The notes under the pieces are model-generated. The model did not search any database. It saw only the letters and a program-made list of their open reading frames with translations, and was not told where the DNA came from. A DNA stretch of 23,807 bases from a virus. The first letter of the stretch is position 1. Each line of letters opens with the position of its first letter. Both the position numbers and the translations under genes were made by a program. The stretch covers positions 1-23,807 of the IMG/VR virus record IMGVR_UViG_3300023184_000518, one strand, 5' to 3'. Shown in pieces: positions 1,740 through 22,150 of the stretch.

Positions 1740-2543
1740 ATGAATAAAAATATATCTGCCGTATATGCAATTAAAAACATATTAAAAAATAGAATTTATA
1801 TTGGGTCTACGTGCCATTCAGAAGATAGAAAACAAGAGCATTTTAGGGATCTTAATAATAACAAACATGCAAACGCATATTTGCAAGCTGATTATAATAT
1901 TTGTGGAAACGAAAATTTTATTTTTGAAATATTAGAAGAAGTATCAATCAATGATCTTTTGTGTGATAGAGAACAAACTTATATAGATCAATATTATGAT
2001 AAACAGGAAAATTGCTATAATATTGCAAAATTTGCTGGAAGACCTCCACCAATAATCTGGACCAAGGAAATGAAAGAAAGTTTATCTTTAAAAACAAAAG
2101 GAAAGAAAATTCATCCAAATACATTAGAGCGATTGTTTAATAAGCAAAAAAATCCTTTCGCAAAATCTGGCAATGAACATCCAAAATCAGGTAAAGCAAT
2201 GCCAGAAAACGCAAAAATTGCAATTAGCAATGCTTTGATCGGAAAAAATAAATCCGAAAAACATTGTGAGAATATATCCAAATCATTAATTGGTAAACCT
2301 TTACCAGAGTATGTTACTGAAAAATTTCGTGATGGTAGGCGTAAAGGAATTAAAAATGCAAACGCAAAATCCGTTGAACAATATGACTTGGATGGTAATT
2401 TTATAAAATCATGGCCTCTAATGTCATTTGCCGCAAAAGAAACAGGTACAAATCTTTCATCCATAAGTTCTTGCTGCGCCGGTAAATGTAAGTCTGCTAA
2501 TGGTTTTATATGGAAGAAGCCTGTAAAAACATCAAATAATTAA
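1740..2543 (+). CDS. GIY-YIG homing endonuclease with NUMOD3 and IENR1-type DNA-binding regions
   Basis: A 267-residue putative site-specific endonuclease, antisense to the surrounding tail genes. The GIY-YIG catalytic domain occupies about residues 6-95: degenerate first motif AVY at 7-9, YIG at 20-22, catalytic Arg at 30, catalytic Glu at 78 and Asn at 94. Residues about 105-185 hold repeated short NUMOD3-like segments rich in SGKxxPE/IGKxxSE patterns. Residues about 209-259 resemble an IENR1/NUMOD1 helix-turn-helix repeat (EQYDLDGNFIKSW ... GFIWK). The start is fixed by the GIY motif, but the only purine-rich stretch, AGGA, touches the ATG, so initiation looks inefficient. The gene sits between the sheath B and tube genes, apparently as an intergenic insertion. 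Confidence 0.88.
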   Translation: MNKNISAVYAIKNILKNRIYIGSTCHSEDRKQEHFRDLNNNKHANAYLQADYNICGNENFIFEILEEVSINDLLCDREQTYIDQYYDKQENCYNIAKFAGRPPPIIWTKEMKESLSLKTKGKKIHPNTLERLFNKQKNPFAKSGNEHPKSGKAMPENAKIAISNALIGKNKSEKHCENISKSLIGKPLPEYVTEKFRDGRRKGIKNANAKSVEQYDLDGNFIKSWPLMSFAAKETGTNLSSISSCCAGKCKSANGFIWKKPVKTSNN

Positions 2544-5743: not shown

Positions 5744-6874
5744 TTAATATTGTGTTTTATTATCTGGTAGCCGCCAACCTTTATGTTGTTTGTAAATTCC
5801 TTTAAGAACACAGTGCATATTACTTTGGTTTAGATTGTGTTTTCTACAAAACTCACACAAATTTTTTCCTTCAAAAATGATTCCATCTGGACTTAAAAAT
5901 TTGAACTCTTTTGCAAGTGAATGTTCTTTTTTGTCGGACATTGTTTCTGTAGCCAACACATGCCAACCTCTATAGGATTTATTCTTCCCACTAATAACAG
6001 AGTGCATATTACCCTGCGATAGATTATTTTTCCTACAGAATTCTTTAAGATTTTTACCTTTATATTCAATTCCATCTGGCCCTATTATAGTAAAATCTTT
6101 GGCTAATCTATGCTCATCAGGAGAGTATGCGACATCTATTAATTTATTATCATATAATCGCCACCCAAGGCATTGATAAGATTTGCCGCTAAAAACTGAC
6201 ATCATCCCAGATTTATGCAATTTATTTTCCTTGCAAAATCGACTTAAATTAGCCACTTCATAAACTATACCAAAAGGAGAAATTACTTTTCCCCAATATT
6301 TTGCTTTTGAAATTGCCATTTTTTCTATAGATGATTTATTTTTACAATTTTTTTTGAATCTTTCAATTGCTTTATCAGAGTTAGCAAACTGAACCATTTT
6401 ATCTCTATAATCTTGCAAGCTCCATGTTATTTTTGCAGAATCAGATTTTCGTTTAATATAATCTGGATTTTTACTTCGCTCTTTGAAAGAGACACTCATC
6501 TTGGCTTTTGTTTTTTCTGGAGTTTTACTAACTGAGCCTTCTCTCGAATATGCATTCAATGTTAAATTGTAGCATGTTTTACCACCATCATAATATTTTT
6601 TAAGATAGACGCCTTCGACATCTAGCCGTTCTTCTTTGGTTTTACCCGTCGTGATCTCTAAAATAATAAAACTATATGCTTCTTTTCCATGCTTGTTATA
6701 GCTGTGTTGGAGGATGTTGTTATAATGTCTATTATTCTTTAAAGCAGAAAGATGCTGTTTGTATCGGGCTAAAAAATTACTTGCAGATCCTATATAAAAT
6801 TTATCATTATCATTATTTTTTATTTTATATATACCGGAATCGTTTTTGAAAATTTCTTGGTCTTCAAATAACAT
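5744..6874 (-). CDS. GIY-YIG homing endonuclease with three C-terminal DNA-binding repeats
   Basis: A 376-residue putative homing endonuclease inserted between the two sheath genes. The catalytic domain is at about residues 12-105: GIY at 14-16, YIG at 27-29, Arg 37, Glu 87 and Asn 103, all the usual key residues. A Lys-rich linker (about 110-190) contains NUMOD3-like segments. Three copies of a roughly 43-residue unit follow at about 198-240, 262-304 and 326-368. Each begins (S/G)P(D/F)G and ends GW(R/H), with a helix-turn-helix-like core (NLxxFCxxNxLxxxxMxxVxxG). The repeats probably read successive stretches of a long DNA target. Translation is likely controlled by the hairpin at 6878-6914, which covers its AGAGGA ribosome-binding site. 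Confidence 0.9.
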   Translation of the reverse strand: MLFEDQEIFKNDSGIYKIKNNDNDKFYIGSASNFLARYKQHLSALKNNRHYNNILQHSYNKHGKEAYSFIILEITTGKTKEERLDVEGVYLKKYYDGGKTCYNLTLNAYSREGSVSKTPEKTKAKMSVSFKERSKNPDYIKRKSDSAKITWSLQDYRDKMVQFANSDKAIERFKKNCKNKSSIEKMAISKAKYWGKVISPFGIVYEVANLSRFCKENKLHKSGMMSVFSGKSYQCLGWRLYDNKLIDVAYSPDEHRLAKDFTIIGPDGIEYKGKNLKEFCRKNNLSQGNMHSVISGKNKSYRGWHVLATETMSDKKEHSLAKEFKFLSPDGIIFEGKNLCEFCRKHNLNQSNMHCVLKGIYKQHKGWRLPDNKTQY

Positions 6875-12196: not shown

Positions 12197-13066
12197 CTAT
12201 TCTTTTACAAATTTAACATAACCTTCACATGATTTTCTTTTTCCATTAAGCATTTTATAAAATGAAGACAAAGAAGTTATTCCTTTTGTTTCACAAAATT
12301 CTTTTGGATTTTTAATTGGACCAAAAATCTCATTCGTCTTTGAATGTTTTATAAACAAATCTCCATTTCTATATTTTACCGTAGGAGCAATATGATTTTT
12401 TAATTTCTGAAGCCGCCAACCTTTATAAGATTTAATTTTTTCATTGACCAAGTATGATAATTGTCGAGCAGATAAATTAAAATTATTTGCAAACTCTATT
12501 AGAGTTGTTTCTACCGTGTGTACTCTATCATCTGAATCAACCAAAATCTTGTTTTCTTTTGCCACTTTTAGTTTTGTTTTCCTCGGCAAAGAATTAACTG
12601 AACGCCATTTAAAATAAGATTTAATTTTTCCACGAGCTAACGCTTGTAAAGATTTTTCATTTAAATTTTTCTGGGCGGCAAAGACACAAATATTAAATCC
12701 AGAGTAAACATTACCGCATGGATCAATAAATGCATAATGCTTAGCACGAATATTATTCCTATTCATCTCGGCATAGCGAGATAAATTATAACATTTATTT
12801 CTATCACCAAAATTTGATAACCCAATAAAATAATTCTCTTCGTCATTCAACTCATGAATTGGAATTTCTTTTTTCACAATAGCAAACAAAAACTTGTCTT
12901 CCCCGTGCTTATTATAATCATTTTGTAAATGCTTGTTGTAGTGTGTATTTTTTCTCAAACATAACAAATGACTATATTTTCTCGCAGCATATCTAACCGT
13001 TTGGCCAATGTAAATTTTACCGTTAAAAGTATTTTTAATTGAATAAATCAAACCAGTTTTAATCAT
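12197..13066 (-). CDS. GIY-YIG homing endonuclease with three C-terminal repeats
   Basis: A 289-residue putative homing endonuclease, second of a tandem pair. The catalytic domain is at about residues 5-96: LIY at 6-8 (degenerate GIY), YIG at 19-21, Arg 29, Glu 77 and Asn 94. Three diverged copies of the repeat found in the 5744-6874 protein follow at about 112-156, 173-219 and 236-285 (for example SYKGWRLQ closing the second). The linker is short and lacks the NUMOD3 region. The ATG lies 28 nt after the stop of the preceding GIY-YIG gene with only a weak AGAAAA ribosome-binding site, so expression may depend on coupling. The DNA is clearly more AT-rich than the capsid gene. It directly precedes the neck gene that lacks a start codon. 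Confidence 0.87.
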   Translation of the reverse strand: MIKTGLIYSIKNTFNGKIYIGQTVRYAARKYSHLLCLRKNTHYNKHLQNDYNKHGEDKFLFAIVKKEIPIHELNDEENYFIGLSNFGDRNKCYNLSRYAEMNRNNIRAKHYAFIDPCGNVYSGFNICVFAAQKNLNEKSLQALARGKIKSYFKWRSVNSLPRKTKLKVAKENKILVDSDDRVHTVETTLIEFANNFNLSARQLSYLVNEKIKSYKGWRLQKLKNHIAPTVKYRNGDLFIKHSKTNEIFGPIKNPKEFCETKGITSLSSFYKMLNGKRKSCEGYVKFVKE

Positions 13067-13094: not shown

Positions 13095-14060
13095 TTAACG
13101 TATAAAAAATTTCCAACCTTTTACTTCATTCAATTTACCGGAATAAAGCTTATAAAGACCACTTGAATCTAATCCATGTTCTTTGGCAAACGCAGTTAAA
13201 CTACGAATATCAGAATATACTTTGCCATCCGGCGATATCAATGGAGCCTTTACTGGCATATTTTGCATCTTTTTCTCATTGTATGCCTTGATGTTCTCTA
13301 TGGATTTTTGATCCATCATCGCTTTATATTCCGCATCATTCTTATATCTTTCATTTAAATTTTCTGTTTTCTTTGTTCCGATATCAATATATGTCTGGCG
13401 AAACTCCGCATCTTCTTTTATTCGTTTTCTAAATGTATCTCTGCCTTTGGGCTGTGATAATTTCAGAGTTTCTATAATTTTTTCTGTCTCTGCTGTATTG
13501 TTTGTCATACGTTCTGACATACACTGTGAAGCTGCATCACGGCGTTCTTTATTATTTTCCCATGAACGTATATGACCCTCCTGTTTCCGTTGTGCTGTTT
13601 CTGGATCAGACAATGCATCTTTTATAGATGCTCGTATACTACTAGCCTTTTCTGGATTACTCCACATCTTTTTCGCAGACGCAGATATCTTGCGTTTCGT
13701 TTCTTCAGGGTCATTGCTCCATGGGCCTTCTTTTGCCACTGCCCAAGTGTTAAAATTATAGCACTCTTTTCCAGAATCAAAATATTGATTGATATAGGCT
13801 TCTTCAATCAATAACCGCTCTTCCTTTGTTTTTCCATCTGTCCCTTCAACAATTTCAAACACAAAAACTTCTTCACCACATTTATTAAAATCTCTTTGAA
13901 GAAATTTGTTGCTATGTTTGTTATTGCGAAGTGCTTTTGAGTGTTGCTTCCAGCGCAATTTAAATAATTTAGATGAACCAATATAGATTCTTCCATTTAA
14001 TTTATTTGTTATTTTATAAATACCAGACTTATACAAATTATTTTGATAATGATACTCCAT
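13095..14060 (-). CDS. GIY-YIG homing endonuclease with NUMOD3-like linker
   Basis: A 321-residue putative homing endonuclease, first of a tandem pair between two neck genes. GIY is at 13-15, YIG at 26-28, Arg 36 and Glu 87, so the catalytic set is complete. A long charged linker (about 110-265) has repeated segments spaced by SNPE/SDPE and KNDAE-like turns, as in NUMOD3 regions. One copy of the C-terminal repeat (SPDGKVYSD ... VKGWKF) is at about 276-317. The frame is open to 14117, but only through a TTG; ATG 14060 has AGGTG 5-6 nt upstream and is preferred. The start is 50 nt past the stop of the neck gene. Its linker and repeat are closest to those of the 5744-6874 gene. Confidence 0.87.
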   Translation of the reverse strand: MEYHYQNNLYKSGIYKITNKLNGRIYIGSSKLFKLRWKQHSKALRNNKHSNKFLQRDFNKCGEEVFVFEIVEGTDGKTKEERLLIEEAYINQYFDSGKECYNFNTWAVAKEGPWSNDPEETKRKISASAKKMWSNPEKASSIRASIKDALSDPETAQRKQEGHIRSWENNKERRDAASQCMSERMTNNTAETEKIIETLKLSQPKGRDTFRKRIKEDAEFRQTYIDIGTKKTENLNERYKNDAEYKAMMDQKSIENIKAYNEKKMQNMPVKAPLISPDGKVYSDIRSLTAFAKEHGLDSSGLYKLYSGKLNEVKGWKFFIR

Positions 14061-14109
14061 ATTACACCTGTATTTTTTAGATATACAACAGATATAACGT
14101 TTTGTCTCG

Positions 14110-15369
14110 TCAAGCAATTAAAATGGTATACTTTGGTGGGACGGGTATGAACTGAAGTTGTTTTACGGTATTTTCAGCTTTGCTTGCTTCTCTTTCGGCA
14201 ATTTTATCGAATGTTAAATTATCTAATGATTCACGCAGGCTTGTTGTTAATTTTTCTTTATCTTCACGGCCTTGTGATATAAGATCATCGCCATTCAAAG
14301 AAAGTTCAGCGCCAGGAATTGGAAAGCTTTTAAATTTACCACGAACTCTACCAAGAAGTTCCGTACATAAAGCTAGAGTAAGTTGTGCGATCCAATTTCT
14401 GCACCAGATATTTAATGAATTATAATTTAGTGGGCCAAAAGGAACGTTAAATGGGCCGTTAACCCCATAAATTTTATCATTCTGATAAGAAGCACCAGAC
14501 CCAGCCCCTACTGGTGAATAAGAAGATCCACTGTTTACTAATGTGGAGGCAAGAGTTGGAAATGGGGATGTTCCAAATGTAACACGTAGCCACAGTCTAT
14601 TGCTAAATCCAGAAACTAAATTATTCGGAGTAGGATAAATTCTCAGTGTTCTACCAGAAATTTTATAGCTAAAATGAGATCTACGAACCTTTTGTGCCGA
14701 CTCCAACATACCGGCTCTCAGAATGTCTTCAAATAGCGGCAGAACATAGAAACGTGTATCTGGTATATATGATTCTACTGGCAATCCTGTAGCTACGAAG
14801 TTTGATGCGAGGTTGCTGTTAAAGACATACTGTACAGGTGGGCCATGGAATACTTCGACCACCTGCATACTCCCAACAGAGCCAGAAGGCTGCTTACTAA
14901 ATATCGTCGCACCTGTTGTATCAATCAACTCAGAATAAATATCATATGTCTGCTGACCATTTGTTAAATTGATATAGCCAGAATATGTTTGCTCTGATTG
15001 ACCATAGCCAATAACACTTGCATAAGGTGCTGAAAGTGTTTTGAGAAACTCAAGGTTTGGCTGAACATACATGTCGGTGACATTTATGTTATTTTCATTA
15101 TTCTGATTAAGACTACCGGTTGGCATACCAAGTAGGGATGATAGATTTGATTTATTTTGATATTCAATCATCATTCCATTGAATTCACGAGTCGCTGTTT
15201 CAAAGCATGACCAAATCATTAATTTGGTTAATTCAACACCTAAAACATCCTCACCTAACATTCGCAAAACGAACGTAACCATGTTATCGGCATCTTGCTG
15301 ATAAAGACTATAACGATCAAAAAAACCAAATGGAGTTGGATGTAAGGTGGTATTAAATGTACTGCTCAT
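14110..15369 (-). CDS. probable neck/head-completion protein (gp13-like)
   Basis: A 419-residue structural protein, first gene of the neck-tail run. The N-terminus is helical (ADNMVTFVLRMLGEDVLGVE ... IWSCFETATREFNGM). The middle is beta-rich and Gly/Ser-rich. The C-terminus has helical ALCTELLGRVRGKFKS, then PIPGAELSLNGDDLISQGRED, then a charged coiled segment ending in a proline-rich tail (QFIPVPPKYTILIA). This C-terminal layout is one I associate with gp13-like neck proteins of T4 relatives, and the order gp13-gp14-gp15-gp18-gp19 would be the T4 order. T4 gp13 is about 309 residues, so this version is enlarged. A promoter-like GATAAATA lies upstream on the minus strand (15429-15436 region). 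The exact family needs a profile search. Confidence 0.55.
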   Translation of the reverse strand: MSSTFNTTLHPTPFGFFDRYSLYQQDADNMVTFVLRMLGEDVLGVELTKLMIWSCFETATREFNGMMIEYQNKSNLSSLLGMPTGSLNQNNENNINVTDMYVQPNLEFLKTLSAPYASVIGYGQSEQTYSGYINLTNGQQTYDIYSELIDTTGATIFSKQPSGSVGSMQVVEVFHGPPVQYVFNSNLASNFVATGLPVESYIPDTRFYVLPLFEDILRAGMLESAQKVRRSHFSYKISGRTLRIYPTPNNLVSGFSNRLWLRVTFGTSPFPTLASTLVNSGSSYSPVGAGSGASYQNDKIYGVNGPFNVPFGPLNYNSLNIWCRNWIAQLTLALCTELLGRVRGKFKSFPIPGAELSLNGDDLISQGREDKEKLTTSLRESLDNLTFDKIAEREASKAENTVKQLQFIPVPPKYTILIA

Positions 15370-16140: not shown

Positions 16141-16377
16141 TCAGCGGCGGGTTGAGCGGCCTTTGCGAAGACCGGCACGATATGCAGCTTTCACTGCTTC
16201 CATAATTACTGCTTCTTCTTTTTCTGGCATTTCTTCTTCATGCATGCCTTCTTCATACATGCCTTCTTCTGGCATATCTTTATCTTCTTTATCTGCATGC
16301 TGACCATGCATTTCCTGAACTGCTTCTTCGGTTGCTTCACGGATAAGTTGTTTTAATTGTCTTACGGTAATTTTCAT
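16141..16377 (-). CDS. small acidic head-associated protein (unidentified)
   Basis: A 78-residue protein with three parts: an N-terminal amphipathic helix MKITVRQLKQLIREATEE, a very acidic Met/Glu-rich centre with EEGM/EEEM-type repeats (about 33-52), and a basic tail (AGLRKGRSTRR). I12-R13-E14 followed by Ala fits the (I/L)-x-E cleavage consensus of the T4 prohead protease. The start resembles capsid-targeting peptides of T4 internal proteins in position and style. That, and its place near the scaffold and capsid genes, suggests an internal-head or prohead-core protein, but no family is recognised. The ribosome-binding site AGGAGA is good. Confidence 0.65.
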   Translation of the reverse strand: MKITVRQLKQLIREATEEAVQEMHGQHADKEDKDMPEEGMYEEGMHEEEMPEKEEAVIMEAVKAAYRAGLRKGRSTRR

Positions 16378-16711: not shown

Positions 16712-17056
16712 ATGATTAAAAGATTATACAAGGCAATAAAAGAAGCTGTAAAAGGTAAACCACTTAAAGTACGATCCCAAAGATGGGATAATGTTAGAGA
16801 ATATCATTTGGAAATATATCCAACATGTGCAGCATGTGGTCGTAATGTTAATACGCAAGTACATCATATTAAACCATTTCACCTTTACCCAGAACTTGAA
16901 TTGGATAGAAATAATCTAATAACCTTATGTGAAAATAAAGAAACCAAATGCCATCTTAAAATTGGTCACCTGGGAAGCTGGAGAAGGATCAATCCAGACG
17001 TAACGCAGAGTGCTTCTGAATTCAAAGAAAATCTTTCAAAAACTATTGAGCCTTGA
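16712..17056 (+). CDS. small HNH endonuclease
   Basis: A 114-residue HNH nuclease of the compact phage type. Key residues are C39/C42 before the core, the HHI at 51-53 (catalytic H52 or H51), N68 in the NNL segment and the closing C73, C80/H81 and H86. A basic N-terminus (RSQRWDNVREYHLE) precedes it, typical of this group. It is on the plus strand, antisense to the late cluster. No ribosome-binding site is visible before the ATG, only A/T-rich sequence shared with the divergent small gene. Its last 14 nt overlap the end of the convergent GNAT-like gene. It is probably a free-standing homing nuclease; a packaging-associated HNH role is less likely so far from terminase genes. Confidence 0.8.
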   Translation: MIKRLYKAIKEAVKGKPLKVRSQRWDNVREYHLEIYPTCAACGRNVNTQVHHIKPFHLYPELELDRNNLITLCENKETKCHLKIGHLGSWRRINPDVTQSASEFKENLSKTIEP

Positions 17057-17846
17057 TTTTTCCAAACCAAACATCATAGCTTTTATAAATAAAATTTTTG
17101 AATTTACCTAATTTGTAATTTAAAACCCCTCCAGAGGAAGCTCCCCAGTGAACTAGACATTCCTTGTCTTGATCCGTTACTAGCCTCTGGATGGTCTTTA
17201 AATCAATATAAAGGCATAGATTTTTATATTCTTTTGATGGAATATATTTCCTGATCAAATACGAAAACAAAGGATGATCTAAATTTTTATCATCTGCATT
17301 TTTAGAAATTACTGAATAGCCAACGCACTTCATTGTTTCTTTGTCATAAAAAAACAATGTCTGTAAATTTTCCTTCTCTTGTTCGAAATATTGAGAATGG
17401 AAGAAGTTTTTATCATAACCAGAATGCAATTGCCATCCATACTTCCTTTTCCCAGCTAATTCATTCCATTCATCTACAACACCAATAACATCAAGAGGAC
17501 TAATCATTTTTTCGCTGATCAAAAGCTTCTTATCAAGACTATTAATTGTCTCTCTGTATTCTTCGTATTCTCTACCTTTAAATTCAAGGAAATTGTTTTT
17601 TGAAAAAGGCCCAGTGATTACAGCAGTGCTTTTTCCATAAAAACTCATGTCTTCAGATTTTATTTTCTTAGTAAAATATCCAAGATTAATATCTTTGTAA
17701 ATACCAATATATGATCTGGCAGACTCCTCATCAAAACATAAGATTTTATTCTTATTTCTTCTAATGGAAAGACTGTCTTCAATAATGGTTTGATTTTTTG
17801 ATAACATTCCCATAACAGAATGTTTGTTGATATATAAATCTTTCAT
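17043..17846 (-). CDS. GNAT-like protein coupled to the methyltransferase (unidentified)
   Basis: A 267-residue protein whose ATG overlaps the TGA of the methyltransferase gene (ATGA), so the two are very likely translated together. The C-terminal half has strand-helix patterns and segments such as LFFYDKETMKCVGYSVISKN and LVHWGASSGGVLNYKLGKF. These remind me of the GNAT acyltransferase fold, but no acetyl-CoA motif is certain. By analogy with Mu Mom, a GNAT-fold enzyme that modifies adenine, it could act on DNA together with the methyltransferase; this is inference from context only. The gene converges on and overlaps the HNH gene by 14 nt. An unknown structural or regulatory role cannot be ruled out. 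Confidence 0.5.
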   Translation of the reverse strand: MKDLYINKHSVMGMLSKNQTIIEDSLSIRRNKNKILCFDEESARSYIGIYKDINLGYFTKKIKSEDMSFYGKSTAVITGPFSKNNFLEFKGREYEEYRETINSLDKKLLISEKMISPLDVIGVVDEWNELAGKRKYGWQLHSGYDKNFFHSQYFEQEKENLQTLFFYDKETMKCVGYSVISKNADDKNLDHPLFSYLIRKYIPSKEYKNLCLYIDLKTIQRLVTDQDKECLVHWGASSGGVLNYKLGKFKNFIYKSYDVWFGKIKAQ

Positions 17847-19999
17847 GCTCTCCTCATCACTACAATTGGTTCTGATTTATGAATAAAATCTTCACGCTCT
17901 TCAGCAGATTTTTTATATTTTGTAAAATGACCATGTGACATCTGAATGAAGTACCTGTCTACTTCCTCAAACCCATGATTTTTACACACCTTGAGCATAT
18001 CGTCAAGTATATTGTGTTTACCATCCAAAACGGAAACCATATTAAGAATAAACACACCATCTTCACTAAGCAAGCCATCAATGTTTTTTACAACAGTATC
18101 CCACCAGCCGTCGATCCATTCCTGATATCCTCGGCCATCAGTACTTTGACCATTCTCTGATTTATCATAAATCTCTTTGGAGAAGTAAGGCGGTGAGGAA
18201 AATGCAAGAGAGAATTTACCCTTCTTGTCTTCTGGACAATATGATTCTGAACCCACATTATTTAGTTCAACTGCAAAATCTTTTACATCACTATCAATGC
18301 CACCAATAAATTCTTTTATTTTATGCCCTGATTCAATGTTCGCTGTCCATGGATCACATGCAACATAATTTCTACCACAAGACATTGCAGCAATCATTCG
18401 TTGACCAAAGCCCATAGAATAATCATAAACCCAATCGCCATTTTTAGAATAATTTTCATAAAAATATTTTGCTAATAGACAATTAAAATTAGAAACAACA
18501 GCACTAGAACGTGTCGAACGAAAACCTTGCCGCAACATAGCGCCGTGAATATTAAAATATCCGAAATAACGAACAATCCTATTTTTTAATACTGCCATCA
18601 ATGTCTTATCAGTATTAAAAGCTTCCAACATACTAGGAGAAGAATCCGAAGAAACATTGTAAAATTGTTCAGCAGTAAAATGCTGCACAATATCCATACC
18701 AGCACGATTCTTATTAGATATCTGCTTAGCTGAATCAGCCTCAATAGATTTTGCCTTTAACTTAAACCACTCCTTAGACATTGCTAAATCCTTATGTCGT
18801 GGATAAGGGAATCCAGTAGATCTATAAAAGTTAAACAATTCTAATACCAGCTTTTCTCTTTCTTCCTCAGATAAGGATTTGGTGTAGTCTTTTGTAATAT
18901 CATTACCGTGCCACTTTAAACATACCGTATCACCATAATCATATGGATCTTGACTGCTTGTAATATTGTTTGTCATTATTCTAACCTTATTTAAATTGTT
19001 CTGCTTTTTAATTCGCTGACCCTTTTTACCCGCATCACTCTCGGCCAGCGAAGAATGATCCTTGCAATAATCTTTAAATCCAAATGAAACATAACGAACT
19101 GAATTTAAACATTTTTCATGCTTACACGGAGGTCTTATGCCATTAAGACAATAATCTATCGTATATTGCTCAGTTGTAATTTTGTGAAAAAATTGAACGT
19201 GTGTTGCAAAAGATCTTGCATTTGAAAAACTAATGTTACAAATTATGCATACCTGTCTCTTAGTGTCATTCTCTAAAATATGATTCTCATCTGTGGAGTA
19301 TTTGAATTTTAAAGATTTAATGTGCTCAAATCTATTGGCGCATACCGAGATGATCTCAGTGTATCTTACACCATAGCTCATTGCAGCTTCTGCCACACTA
19401 TCATAAAATTTTCCATCATTCAAACAAATAACGGATCTTTTGTTATGTCCACCATGTTTGCCTTCTTTTACAATATATTTTGATGCTCTTTCCTTATCAG
19501 CATATATCCATCTATAACCACCAAACGTTATTAAACGACCTTTACAGGCATTATAAATGCATCCCGCACCAAATCCCAATTCACGCTCCACATCAGCAGC
19601 CGAAGGCCACTCTCTGATGACTTTGCGAGTATCTTTATCAATTTGTAGAATAGGAATTTTTTTAGATTCAAAATCTATGCCACCAGCATTTTTCGAAGTA
19701 TTATAACAATTTAATCCGTCATCATGATATAAATTAATTAATTCTTGTTCTCTTTTTATAATCTCTTCGTGTGAAGCACTTGGCATTTCTTCAATTATAA
19801 TAAATTGAAAGCTATTTTCCCCATATAAATTCCAAGATTTTTGCAAATGAACATTAATATGATTCCCTGTTGTAAGCAAAGTTTTATGTGACCACCATCT
19901 CTTAGTTATATGGATACTACTACCAATATAAAATTTGCCATTGGTCGTATTTGTTATTTTATATATCCCTCTTTTATGCGGAACAAACGGTCTTGCCAT
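17843..19999 (-). CDS. fusion of GIY-YIG endonuclease, zinc module and DNA methyltransferase
   Basis: One uninterrupted 718-residue frame. The GIY-YIG nuclease is at about residues 9-105 (GIY 11-13, YIG 24-26, Arg 34, Glu 84). Two IENR1-like DNA-binding repeats are at about 116-166 and 188-236. The zinc module is at about 251-315 (C251, C254, H267, H272; C292, C297, C312, H315). The class I methyltransferase is at about 345-718, with an SAM-binding motif DYSMGFG at 526-532, an acidic D549-P550, and a catalytic SPPY at 602-605, the pattern of amino-methyltransferases acting on adenine-N6 or cytosine-N4. An ATG at residue 342 with AAGG 8 nt upstream could give a separate methyltransferase. The gene overlaps the GNAT-like gene downstream and lies after the capsid terminator. 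All catalytic residues of both enzymes look intact. Confidence 0.8.
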   Translation of the reverse strand: MARPFVPHKRGIYKITNTTNGKFYIGSSIHITKRWWSHKTLLTTGNHINVHLQKSWNLYGENSFQFIIIEEMPSASHEEIIKREQELINLYHDDGLNCYNTSKNAGGIDFESKKIPILQIDKDTRKVIREWPSAADVERELGFGAGCIYNACKGRLITFGGYRWIYADKERASKYIVKEGKHGGHNKRSVICLNDGKFYDSVAEAAMSYGVRYTEIISVCANRFEHIKSLKFKYSTDENHILENDTKRQVCIICNISFSNARSFATHVQFFHKITTEQYTIDYCLNGIRPPCKHEKCLNSVRYVSFGFKDYCKDHSSLAESDAGKKGQRIKKQNNLNKVRIMTNNITSSQDPYDYGDTVCLKWHGNDITKDYTKSLSEEEREKLVLELFNFYRSTGFPYPRHKDLAMSKEWFKLKAKSIEADSAKQISNKNRAGMDIVQHFTAEQFYNVSSDSSPSMLEAFNTDKTLMAVLKNRIVRYFGYFNIHGAMLRQGFRSTRSSAVVSNFNCLLAKYFYENYSKNGDWVYDYSMGFGQRMIAAMSCGRNYVACDPWTANIESGHKIKEFIGGIDSDVKDFAVELNNVGSESYCPEDKKGKFSLAFSSPPYFSKEIYDKSENGQSTDGRGYQEWIDGWWDTVVKNIDGLLSEDGVFILNMVSVLDGKHNILDDMLKVCKNHGFEEVDRYFIQMSHGHFTKYKKSAEEREDFIHKSEPIVVMRRA
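18974..18988 (-). promoter_or_regulatory. possible internal RBS and start for the free methyltransferase
   Basis: On the minus strand AAGG (18985-18988) lies 8 nt before an in-frame ATG (18974-18976). The ATG falls exactly at the junction between the zinc module and the methyltransferase domain. Use of this start would give a 377-residue methyltransferase without the nuclease. Confidence 0.5.
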
Positions 20000-20032: not shown

Positions 20033-20070
20033 ACAGTTTTTGTTATATTATGTATATGATTTAAAAATAA

Positions 20071-20104
20071 AAAGGGCATCAGAACCGAAGTCCTGACACC
20101 CTTT
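20071..20104 (-). terminator. UUCG-tetraloop terminator after the capsid gene
   Basis: In the minus-strand RNA a 15-bp stem (with three G-U pairs) closes a C(UUCG)G tetraloop and is followed by a U-rich run (UUUUUAUUUUU). It lies 40 nt past the capsid stop. This is the classic T4 terminator design and should isolate abundant capsid mRNA from the downstream insert. Confidence 0.9.
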
Positions 20105-20143
20105 CCAAACAGGTCACTGTAATAAATGACTTGTTTTACCGGC

Positions 20144-22150
20144 TCAGATTATTGACATGTCTAGGCAGGTGACGGTTGCGTAGAAATCAGCTCTCACCAT
20201 TTTTTTCCCGTATCTAGTCATAATCCCTTTTCTTGGGGTGAAGTCATCTTGTGCATAGATGACTGGGGTTAGAATGAGGGGTACGTATGGAGCATAGATA
20301 TACCCTGATTCTAGGAAGGTTGAACCCTTGAGACCCACGAGAACTTTGTTCACTGGGAAGTATGGGTCAACGAATACTGAGTAACGACCATTTACGGTAC
20401 CGACCGCTTCAGCGCCGATGCTCATGTTGTCACGAACTTGGCCGTCTGAATCGATTTTGTAGTTTGCACGGTATGCAACGGTTGCTTCAAGGATGGTGCC
20501 AACTTCTGGTGAGCAAACAATGAAGTTGCCTGAACCACGAAGGGTTTTCTTGTGAATGACGTTGGCTGCATCAGTGATGGTTTCGATGAGTGTCTCGTAC
20601 CATTCACGGACGGTGCCGGTGAACTGTGGACCGGGGTGCACGTTGGTTGTACGAGAAACTTCTGAACCGGTGTATTTGTTAACAAAGCGACCTGGGGCAC
20701 GGCTCCAGAAGTAGTTGGCTGCTTGAGCTTGGGTAAGGAGGTCGTTTAGAATTTCACGGTCGATATCGAGAGTGATCATTTCTGAGAGAATATTGGTAAG
20801 CTCAGCTTCTACATCGATTGAGTAGAATGCAGTGAGGTCTTGTGCCATTTCTGGGGACCAACGTGCACGGAGTTTACGGGTTGTTGCTGTTACGGCAACT
20901 GATTCAATTTTGATGTCCACATCTGGAATCACTGGCTGTGCTGTGCTGGTTGCAAAGTTGGATTCAAAGCTTGGAATGGTGAGGGTTGAACCATCAGCAT
21001 TTACTGAGAGTGAATCGCCAATTACAACTGAAGCAGTTACTGCGGTTGTTACTGCGCCAAGACCAGTACCTGGGAGTGAAACGGTACCTGCGCCATTTGC
21101 AACGTTCATTACAAATAGAACGTGTGAGCCATCGAATGGTGCTGGGGTGAAGGTCTGGGCTGATGCATCCCAGTTACCACGTTGGTTGAAACGACGGAAG
21201 TTTAGTACGGCTTCACCAGCCTGATATGTTGCTGGAACAGGTGAGAATACTTGTGCGCCAACTGGATTTATTGTTCCTGAAACGCCGAAGCCAACTAGAG
21301 CAATTTGATCAACTGATTGAAGATCTGCGCCAGCAACTCTGTCTGTAAAGTGTGAAGCTGTAATGACAAGGAACGTGAAGTCTCTTGCGGCAACTTCTAC
21401 ATCAGCTGCAAGAGTTGGGTCATATGCACTGAAACGAGCATTGTAGCCAACGTTTGCTGAAGCTGAAGCAACTGTTGAGCCAGTAAGCCAAGTGGTACCG
21501 CCTTGCCATGAACCAACAAGAATACCAGATGAGGTTAGTGTGGTTTGGACGTGGACTTTTGAGTAACCAGAACCGATTAGGTTGTATTGACCACCAGCTG
21601 CAAGGGCACCTTGGGTGCGGATTGCGGAACCGGATGGGTTGGTGTATAGTGAGTTGCCACGACCATAGGTTGATGCGCCAGGGTTTACAGTTGTTGGGCC
21701 ACCTGATGTTGATGCGCCTGAACCAGCGACTGTTTCACCGGCTGCACCACCAACGTATGAACCGTAGGTGTAATCAAGATAAAAGAGCAGACCTGATGGA
21801 AGGCTCATTGGTTGTACGGAGACTACTTCGTTGGCAACTAGGCCAGCGAATACTCTACGGACGATTGGGAATGCTACGTTGGTAAAACCAGCGACTTGGC
21901 CGCTAGAAGCCATACCTGCTCCACCTTGGGAGAGAGAAAGGCTTTCGTTAAGCATTGAGGAACCGCCACGAAGAACTTCGCAAGCTTGGTTTTCAAGAAG
22001 GCGTGCCATCTTTTCTTTACCAAGGTTTGAAAGACCTTCTAGTAGACCGGTTTTGTTCCATTTGCCGACGATGCGATCATTGCCTGCTGTTGCGCTGGTA
22101 CGTTGAATACCTTCTGCGAGCTGTGAGAGTGTTAGGGTTTTTGATAACAT
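20144..22150 (-). CDS. major capsid protein (T4 gp23-like)
   Basis: A 668-residue capsid precursor. The diagnostic stretch is at about 89-130: FTNVAFPIVRRVFAGL, then VANEVVSVQPMSLPSG and a LDYTYGS strand. The C-terminal half contains RWSPEMAQDL, the long helix before DREILNDLL, and a C-terminus ending in TCLDMSII, as expected for the gp23 HK97-like fold. T4 gp23 is 521 residues; the extra length is in a Ser/Gly/Thr-rich insertion region (about 130-400). Four N-terminal sites fit the prohead-protease consensus or nearly so: LAE-G (11-14), LLE-G (36-39), LLE-N (51-54) and LNE-S (67-70). The last is closest to the T4 cleavage position after residue 65. The ribosome-binding site AAGGAG is good. 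Base composition is richer in GC than the neighbouring homing genes. Confidence 0.93.
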   Translation of the reverse strand: MLSKTLTLSQLAEGIQRTSATAGNDRIVGKWNKTGLLEGLSNLGKEKMARLLENQACEVLRGGSSMLNESLSLSQGGAGMASSGQVAGFTNVAFPIVRRVFAGLVANEVVSVQPMSLPSGLLFYLDYTYGSYVGGAAGETVAGSGASTSGGPTTVNPGASTYGRGNSLYTNPSGSAIRTQGALAAGGQYNLIGSGYSKVHVQTTLTSSGILVGSWQGGTTWLTGSTVASASANVGYNARFSAYDPTLAADVEVAARDFTFLVITASHFTDRVAGADLQSVDQIALVGFGVSGTINPVGAQVFSPVPATYQAGEAVLNFRRFNQRGNWDASAQTFTPAPFDGSHVLFVMNVANGAGTVSLPGTGLGAVTTAVTASVVIGDSLSVNADGSTLTIPSFESNFATSTAQPVIPDVDIKIESVAVTATTRKLRARWSPEMAQDLTAFYSIDVEAELTNILSEMITLDIDREILNDLLTQAQAANYFWSRAPGRFVNKYTGSEVSRTTNVHPGPQFTGTVREWYETLIETITDAANVIHKKTLRGSGNFIVCSPEVGTILEATVAYRANYKIDSDGQVRDNMSIGAEAVGTVNGRYSVFVDPYFPVNKVLVGLKGSTFLESGYIYAPYVPLILTPVIYAQDDFTPRKGIMTRYGKKMVRADFYATVTCLDMSII

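Follow-up and report, generated by a model that had tools for sequence, protein, structure and literature searches.

Homing genes and restriction-modification systems both deploy nucleases, selfish or defensive, and they avoid cutting their own DNA in different ways; the locus described here raises the question of whether one phage gene can be both at once. The window, meaning the whole 23,807-base stretch of viral record IMGVR_UViG_3300023184_000518 that was analysed, carries capsid, neck and two tail-sheath genes. The original prediction, made from its letters alone, was that a single open frame joins a GIY-YIG nuclease, DNA-binding repeats, a zinc module and a DNA methyltransferase into a possible self-protecting mobile element; alternatively, a resident methylase gene had simply received a homing gene at its 5' end. 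Here, we ask which of these readings, or which other, best accounts for the gene, its relatives and its location.

A homing nuclease and a methyltransferase in one chain

The predicted frame lies on the minus strand, which had not been specified, and each of its parts was recovered (Table 1). Pfam matches GIY-YIG at residues 11-94 (8.7e-10), and in the alignment with I-TevI (1mk0) the GIY, YIG, Arg, Glu and Asn positions are retained. The NUMOD-like repeats and the zinc module score weakly in Pfam, below the cut-off; the PHROG 314 homing endonuclease profile reaches residue 248 (9.7e-28), and the zinc module gives only a weak C2H2 match, but the same Cys/His module is found in window gene 168-1130, and related phages have it in homing genes. 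In the methyltransferase, Pfam N6_N4_Mtase matches residues 597-716 (7.7e-8), motif I stands before motif IV, and the structure predicted for residues 342-718 has a pLDDT of 92.9. The chain terminates with the methyltransferase fold and nothing follows it. As read from its sequence, the predicted product is one chain in which a complete GIY-YIG nuclease is followed by DNA-binding modules of homing type and by an amino-methyltransferase whose motifs are intact.

Table 1. Features of the fusion gene and its surroundings, in window coordinates
Feature	Position	Strand	Evidence or remark
78-aa gene, far side of insert	16141..16377	-	L100 homologue, 61% identity over 23 aa, E 1.5e-6
82-aa gene, within the interval empty in L100	16431..16679	-	
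HNH nuclease gene in same insert	16712..17056	+	67% identical gene near capsid gene in L096
267-aa gene, putative FemX/DUF2156-like (GNAT-fold) transferase	17043..17846	-	4 bp overlap with fusion gene (ATGA)
718-aa homing nuclease-methyltransferase fusion gene	17843..19999	-	open over 718 codons
Methyltransferase domain, residues 366-718	17846..18904	-	
Motif IV SPPY, residues 602-605	18185..18196	-	at least 90% conserved across 82 alignment rows
Motif I DYSMGFGQR, residues 526-534	18398..18424	-	D, G, G, R invariant across 82 alignment rows
In-frame ATG, residue 342, possible internal start	18974..18976	-	AAGG 8 nt upstream
Zinc module of phage homing-nuclease type, about residues 247-320	19040..19261	-	
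NUMOD/HTH-like DNA-binding repeats, residues 116-245	19265..19654	-	
Segment with divergent GIY-YIG in L007, about residues 35-115	19655..19897	-	nucleotide identity 0.60-0.67
GIY-YIG nuclease domain, residues 9-101	19697..19975	-	I-TevI structures 1mk0/1ln0, 2.9e-11
Intrinsic terminator of capsid gene, just before insert	20068..20105	-	sequence and fold
Major capsid protein gene, adjacent, putative target locus	20144..22150	-	PHROG 138, 8.7e-70

The original prediction would have been abandoned had a stop or frameshift separated the two parts, or had relatives all carried a separate methylase and a recent homing insertion that yields no full-length product; neither is the case. The frame is not an artefact of assembly or frame calling, since the 718-aa frame is also present, without stop or frameshift, in a separate contig, L007, and bears the mark of purifying selection: beyond residue 115, dN is 0.008 and dS 0.115 (dN/dS about 0.07). 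Past the swapped segment, 20-codon blocks are 92-100% identical in DNA, with the exception of residues 661-680, where there are extra, mostly synonymous changes. Within the segment dS is about 1.7. Because the divergence is confined largely to residues 35-115, the nuclease core has been exchanged between otherwise near-identical chains.

One methyltransferase family joined to several nucleases

Profile scans of viral contigs and genomes gave 278 loci, clustered into 172 tree rows that include 60 homing-type nuclease fusions and 92 free methyltransferase genes. The single-chain order thus recurs in other phages and the methyltransferase also occurs alone, the two comparisons that had been proposed at the outset. 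The 60 fused representatives, from viral contigs, combine one methyltransferase family with several nuclease families: GIY-YIG, LAGLIDADG_2, LAGLIDADG_3, TnsA-like and HNH by Pfam or PHROG, together with Vsr-like and CGNR/PD-(D/E)xK types whose labels were assigned partly by eye. Motifs I and IV are both present in 57 of them. In the methyltransferase tree, a quick one with a single support measure, the window fusion is sister to a TnsA-like fusion (L016, support 99), with HNH and LAGLIDADG fusions close by; the nuclease half varies on closely related methyltransferases. Free-standing members of the family occur in Vibrio, Bacteroides and staphylococcal phages, some of them among nucleotide and replication genes.

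The family also appears in other contexts. At L028:5980-7455 its partner in the chain is a T4-type RNA ligase domain (Pfam RNA_lig_T4_1, 2.2e-10). A Lak phage protein (L014:2636-4579), which adjoins a Vsr-like nuclease gene on the opposite strand, combines zinc modules with a family methyltransferase whose motif IV is altered (SPYG). At L213:2252-3682, a LAGLIDADG gene with a truncated methyltransferase end is followed by a complete free methyltransferase, an arrangement that resembles a partial duplication.

Neither the methyltransferase part nor the neighbouring 267-aa gene gave a match in sequence searches of the PDB. When the structure of the methyltransferase core was compared, the nearest folds among the matches listed were the tRNA amino-methyltransferases Trm11/TrmN (Z about 18), and DNA methylases did not appear among the best 50 structure matches listed, which is no evidence of their absence. 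These folds would suit RNA rather than DNA as the substrate, a reading to which we give very little credence, given that the Pfam and PADLOC matches are to DNA N4/N6 methylases and that the parts joined to relatives are of homing type or, by eye, resemble ParB.

Most fusions lie behind the major capsid gene

Of the 60 fusions, 55 have a capsid gene within 4 kb, compared with 12 of 92 free methyltransferases (Fisher p = 1.6e-23) and 12 of 53 same-family nucleases without a methyltransferase nearby (p = 1.5e-14), although these p values overstate independence, since the capsid models were grown from these loci and the 55 capsid proteins fall into only three clusters at 40% identity (49, 4 and 2), and the contrast with plain nucleases is inflated, since those often come from phages whose capsid these models may miss. 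The small number of capsid clusters also means that shared descent explains part of the pattern. All 55 capsid-linked fusions are on the 3' side of the capsid gene, 47 of them within 400 bp (four of these convergent), and the window fusion is 145 bp away. The remaining five comprise one behind a tail-tube gene, three behind a giant virion-like gene and one in convergent orientation to another gene. In LR745208, a 485-kb phage, the methyltransferase is fused to LAGLIDADG immediately behind the capsid gene. Ten phage records of 258-459 kb have one full-length methyltransferase each, except for one record with two, and the other LAGLIDADG copies in these records are scattered, none with a methyltransferase. 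Expression by read-through from the capsid gene is weakened as a reason for this address by the terminator between the capsid and fusion genes.

The distribution bears on the idea that a methylase gene already in place acquired a homing gene at its 5' end, with free methylase still made from an internal start. The ATG foreseen at residue 342 (position 18976) is present, with its AAGG, and free relatives begin near the same point; initiation there is possible in the window fusion. It does not appear to be a feature of the other fusions, as internal starts are not enriched at fusion junctions (10 of 4560 codons near the junction versus 70 of 26614 elsewhere). The nearest relatives of the window gene are themselves fusions and not free genes at the capsid locus, fusions are at that locus while free methylases are mostly elsewhere, the nuclease half changes, and the exchange with L007 falls within the nuclease. 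We consider such a landing quite improbable.

The insertion is polymorphic and the region heavily invaded

In a related phage, L100, the site is empty: the capsid gene, the terminator and the homologue of the 78-aa gene are in direct succession with no homing gene. Other relatives have homing genes in the interval that follows the capsid gene, of GIY-YIG, Vsr-type or TnsA-like kind depending on the phage. The insertion is polymorphic, as is expected of homing endonucleases, and the predicted mobile element sits where homing genes sit and is absent from a relative. The G+C content of the insert genes (0.30-0.35) is like that of other homing genes here, and that of the capsid gene is 0.48. That versions at the same address occur in many phages suggests a mobile gene, one that may mark its own DNA against self-cutting.

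Five additional homing-type genes in the window (1740-2543, 5744-6874, 12197-13066, 13095-14117 and 168-1130; four GIY-YIG and one zinc/HNH-like) adjoin sheath, tube and neck genes, so the structural region is heavily invaded. Elsewhere, the major capsid gene is in pieces in L185, L190, L196, L207, L368 and L373, with a homing gene between the pieces in L185 and L190.

Invasion of the capsid gene of these phages by other homing elements would give a use to a protein in which the DNA-binding modules of the nuclease half only steer the methyltransferase to the capsid locus, either to regulate it or to defend it against those elements. Such a guide is improbable, in that the catalytic GIY-YIG residues are kept both in the window fusion and in the swapped L007 version, and the exchange of whole nuclease types suggests selection for cutting.

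Another possibility is that the methyltransferase, with or without its FemX-like neighbour, is an ordinary phage gene for anti-restriction or modification, carried by the homing gene as cargo, and does not protect the site. In support of this, 80 of the 92 free methyltransferases of the family are away from the capsid locus, nuclease and complete methyltransferase are separate adjacent genes in L201, L203 and L213, and some plain homing nucleases occupy the same capsid address without a methyltransferase, which indicates that one is not required for homing there. Recurrent in-frame fusion with several nuclease types, however, favours a functional tie between both activities, and we regard cargo as rather unlikely, if the most serious of the alternatives.

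A transferase-like neighbour

Searches with the 267-aa gene alone found a near-identical contig only, and its homology was seen through an alignment of methyltransferase neighbours (hhalign against this partner family: probability 96, E 4.9e-9, nearly full length). The partner family has weak PF09924 matches and a weak likeness to LPG_synthase_C, and the model of the 267-aa protein, of low confidence (pLDDT 65.6), is nearest to MprF/DUF2156/FemX, which makes a double-GNAT aminoacyl transferase fold no more than a candidate. MprF and FemX are enzymes that move amino acids from tRNA. Relatives of the gene adjoin the methyltransferase in L021, L189, L199, L203, L209, L216 and others. In L201 and L190 they carry a fused N-terminal part of homing type (LAGLIDADG at L201:4116-5981 and a similar part at L190:6951-8699), the FemX/DUF2156-like partner replacing the methyltransferase. 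In two bacterial genome contigs (L344 and L349), a DUF2156-like gene adjoins a family methyltransferase whose chain is without a homing nuclease.

Discussion

In this study, we sought to explain a phage gene that joins a homing nuclease to a methyltransferase. The reading we favour, to which we give a probability of roughly one half, is a free-standing homing cassette whose fixed address is the 3' end of the major capsid gene and whose methyltransferase is predicted to protect the intact target. Building on the architecture of this cassette, its recurrence, address and empty allele, and the conserved motifs, the following course can be proposed. During mixed infection, the nuclease part would cut a cassette-free phage at its capsid locus, and the break would be repaired from the carrier, with the cassette copied in. 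Since the insert stands after the capsid gene and does not interrupt it, the recognised sequence can survive the insertion; the methyltransferase would mark that sequence on carrier DNA, in the style of type IIG restriction-modification, and so would protect it. More speculatively, the FemX-like gene might add to or act on this modification.

The fusion has features of two known systems. Like free-standing GIY-YIG homing endonucleases of the I-TevI/Seg type, it has a GIY-YIG domain alignable with I-TevI, NUMOD-like and zinc modules, an intergenic location beside a conserved virion gene and a patchy presence; unlike them, its chain also bears a methyltransferase. It resembles type IIG restriction-modification enzymes in being a nuclease followed by an amino-methyltransferase in one chain, yet its nuclease is GIY-YIG rather than PD-(D/E)xK, both its nuclease and its DNA-binding parts are homing-type, no target recognition domain follows the methyltransferase, and it is located in a phage homing site.

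The literature searched, mostly without subscription journals, does not describe this class, which is weak evidence of absence; the nearest case in it is homing insertions inside a different class of actinophage methylase. Actinophage methylases with LAGLIDADG, intein and ShiLan (hidden HNH) insertions (PMC9957025, PMC11855218) likewise have a homing nuclease and a phage methylase sharing one gene. In Taj_79, motif IV comes first and motif I last, with LAGLIDADG inside the methylase, whereas in our fusion motif I precedes motif IV and the nuclease is N-terminal. Membership of the same family can be ruled out, as the profile of the fusion methyltransferase family scores Taj_79 at only 5 bits, and the N-terminal nuclease, not inserted within the methylase, does not suggest an intein. 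In Lactobacillales, an Slx1-like GIY-YIG domain is fused to a COG4123 N-methyltransferase (PMC1564403), a chain that also combines GIY-YIG with an NPPY-type methyltransferase; unlike the fusion, that protein has an N-terminal methyltransferase and a repair-type nuclease and is encoded on a bacterial chromosome.

Altogether, we tentatively put forward self-protecting homing elements as a class: homing restriction-modification genes in a single chain, specialised for the major capsid locus, whose nuclease heads can be exchanged and in which methylation would take the place of target disruption. Such a class could explain how a homing gene can sit next to an essential gene that tolerates no disruption of its sequence, and a recurrent natural fusion at one preferred address makes the link between homing and restriction-modification directly testable.
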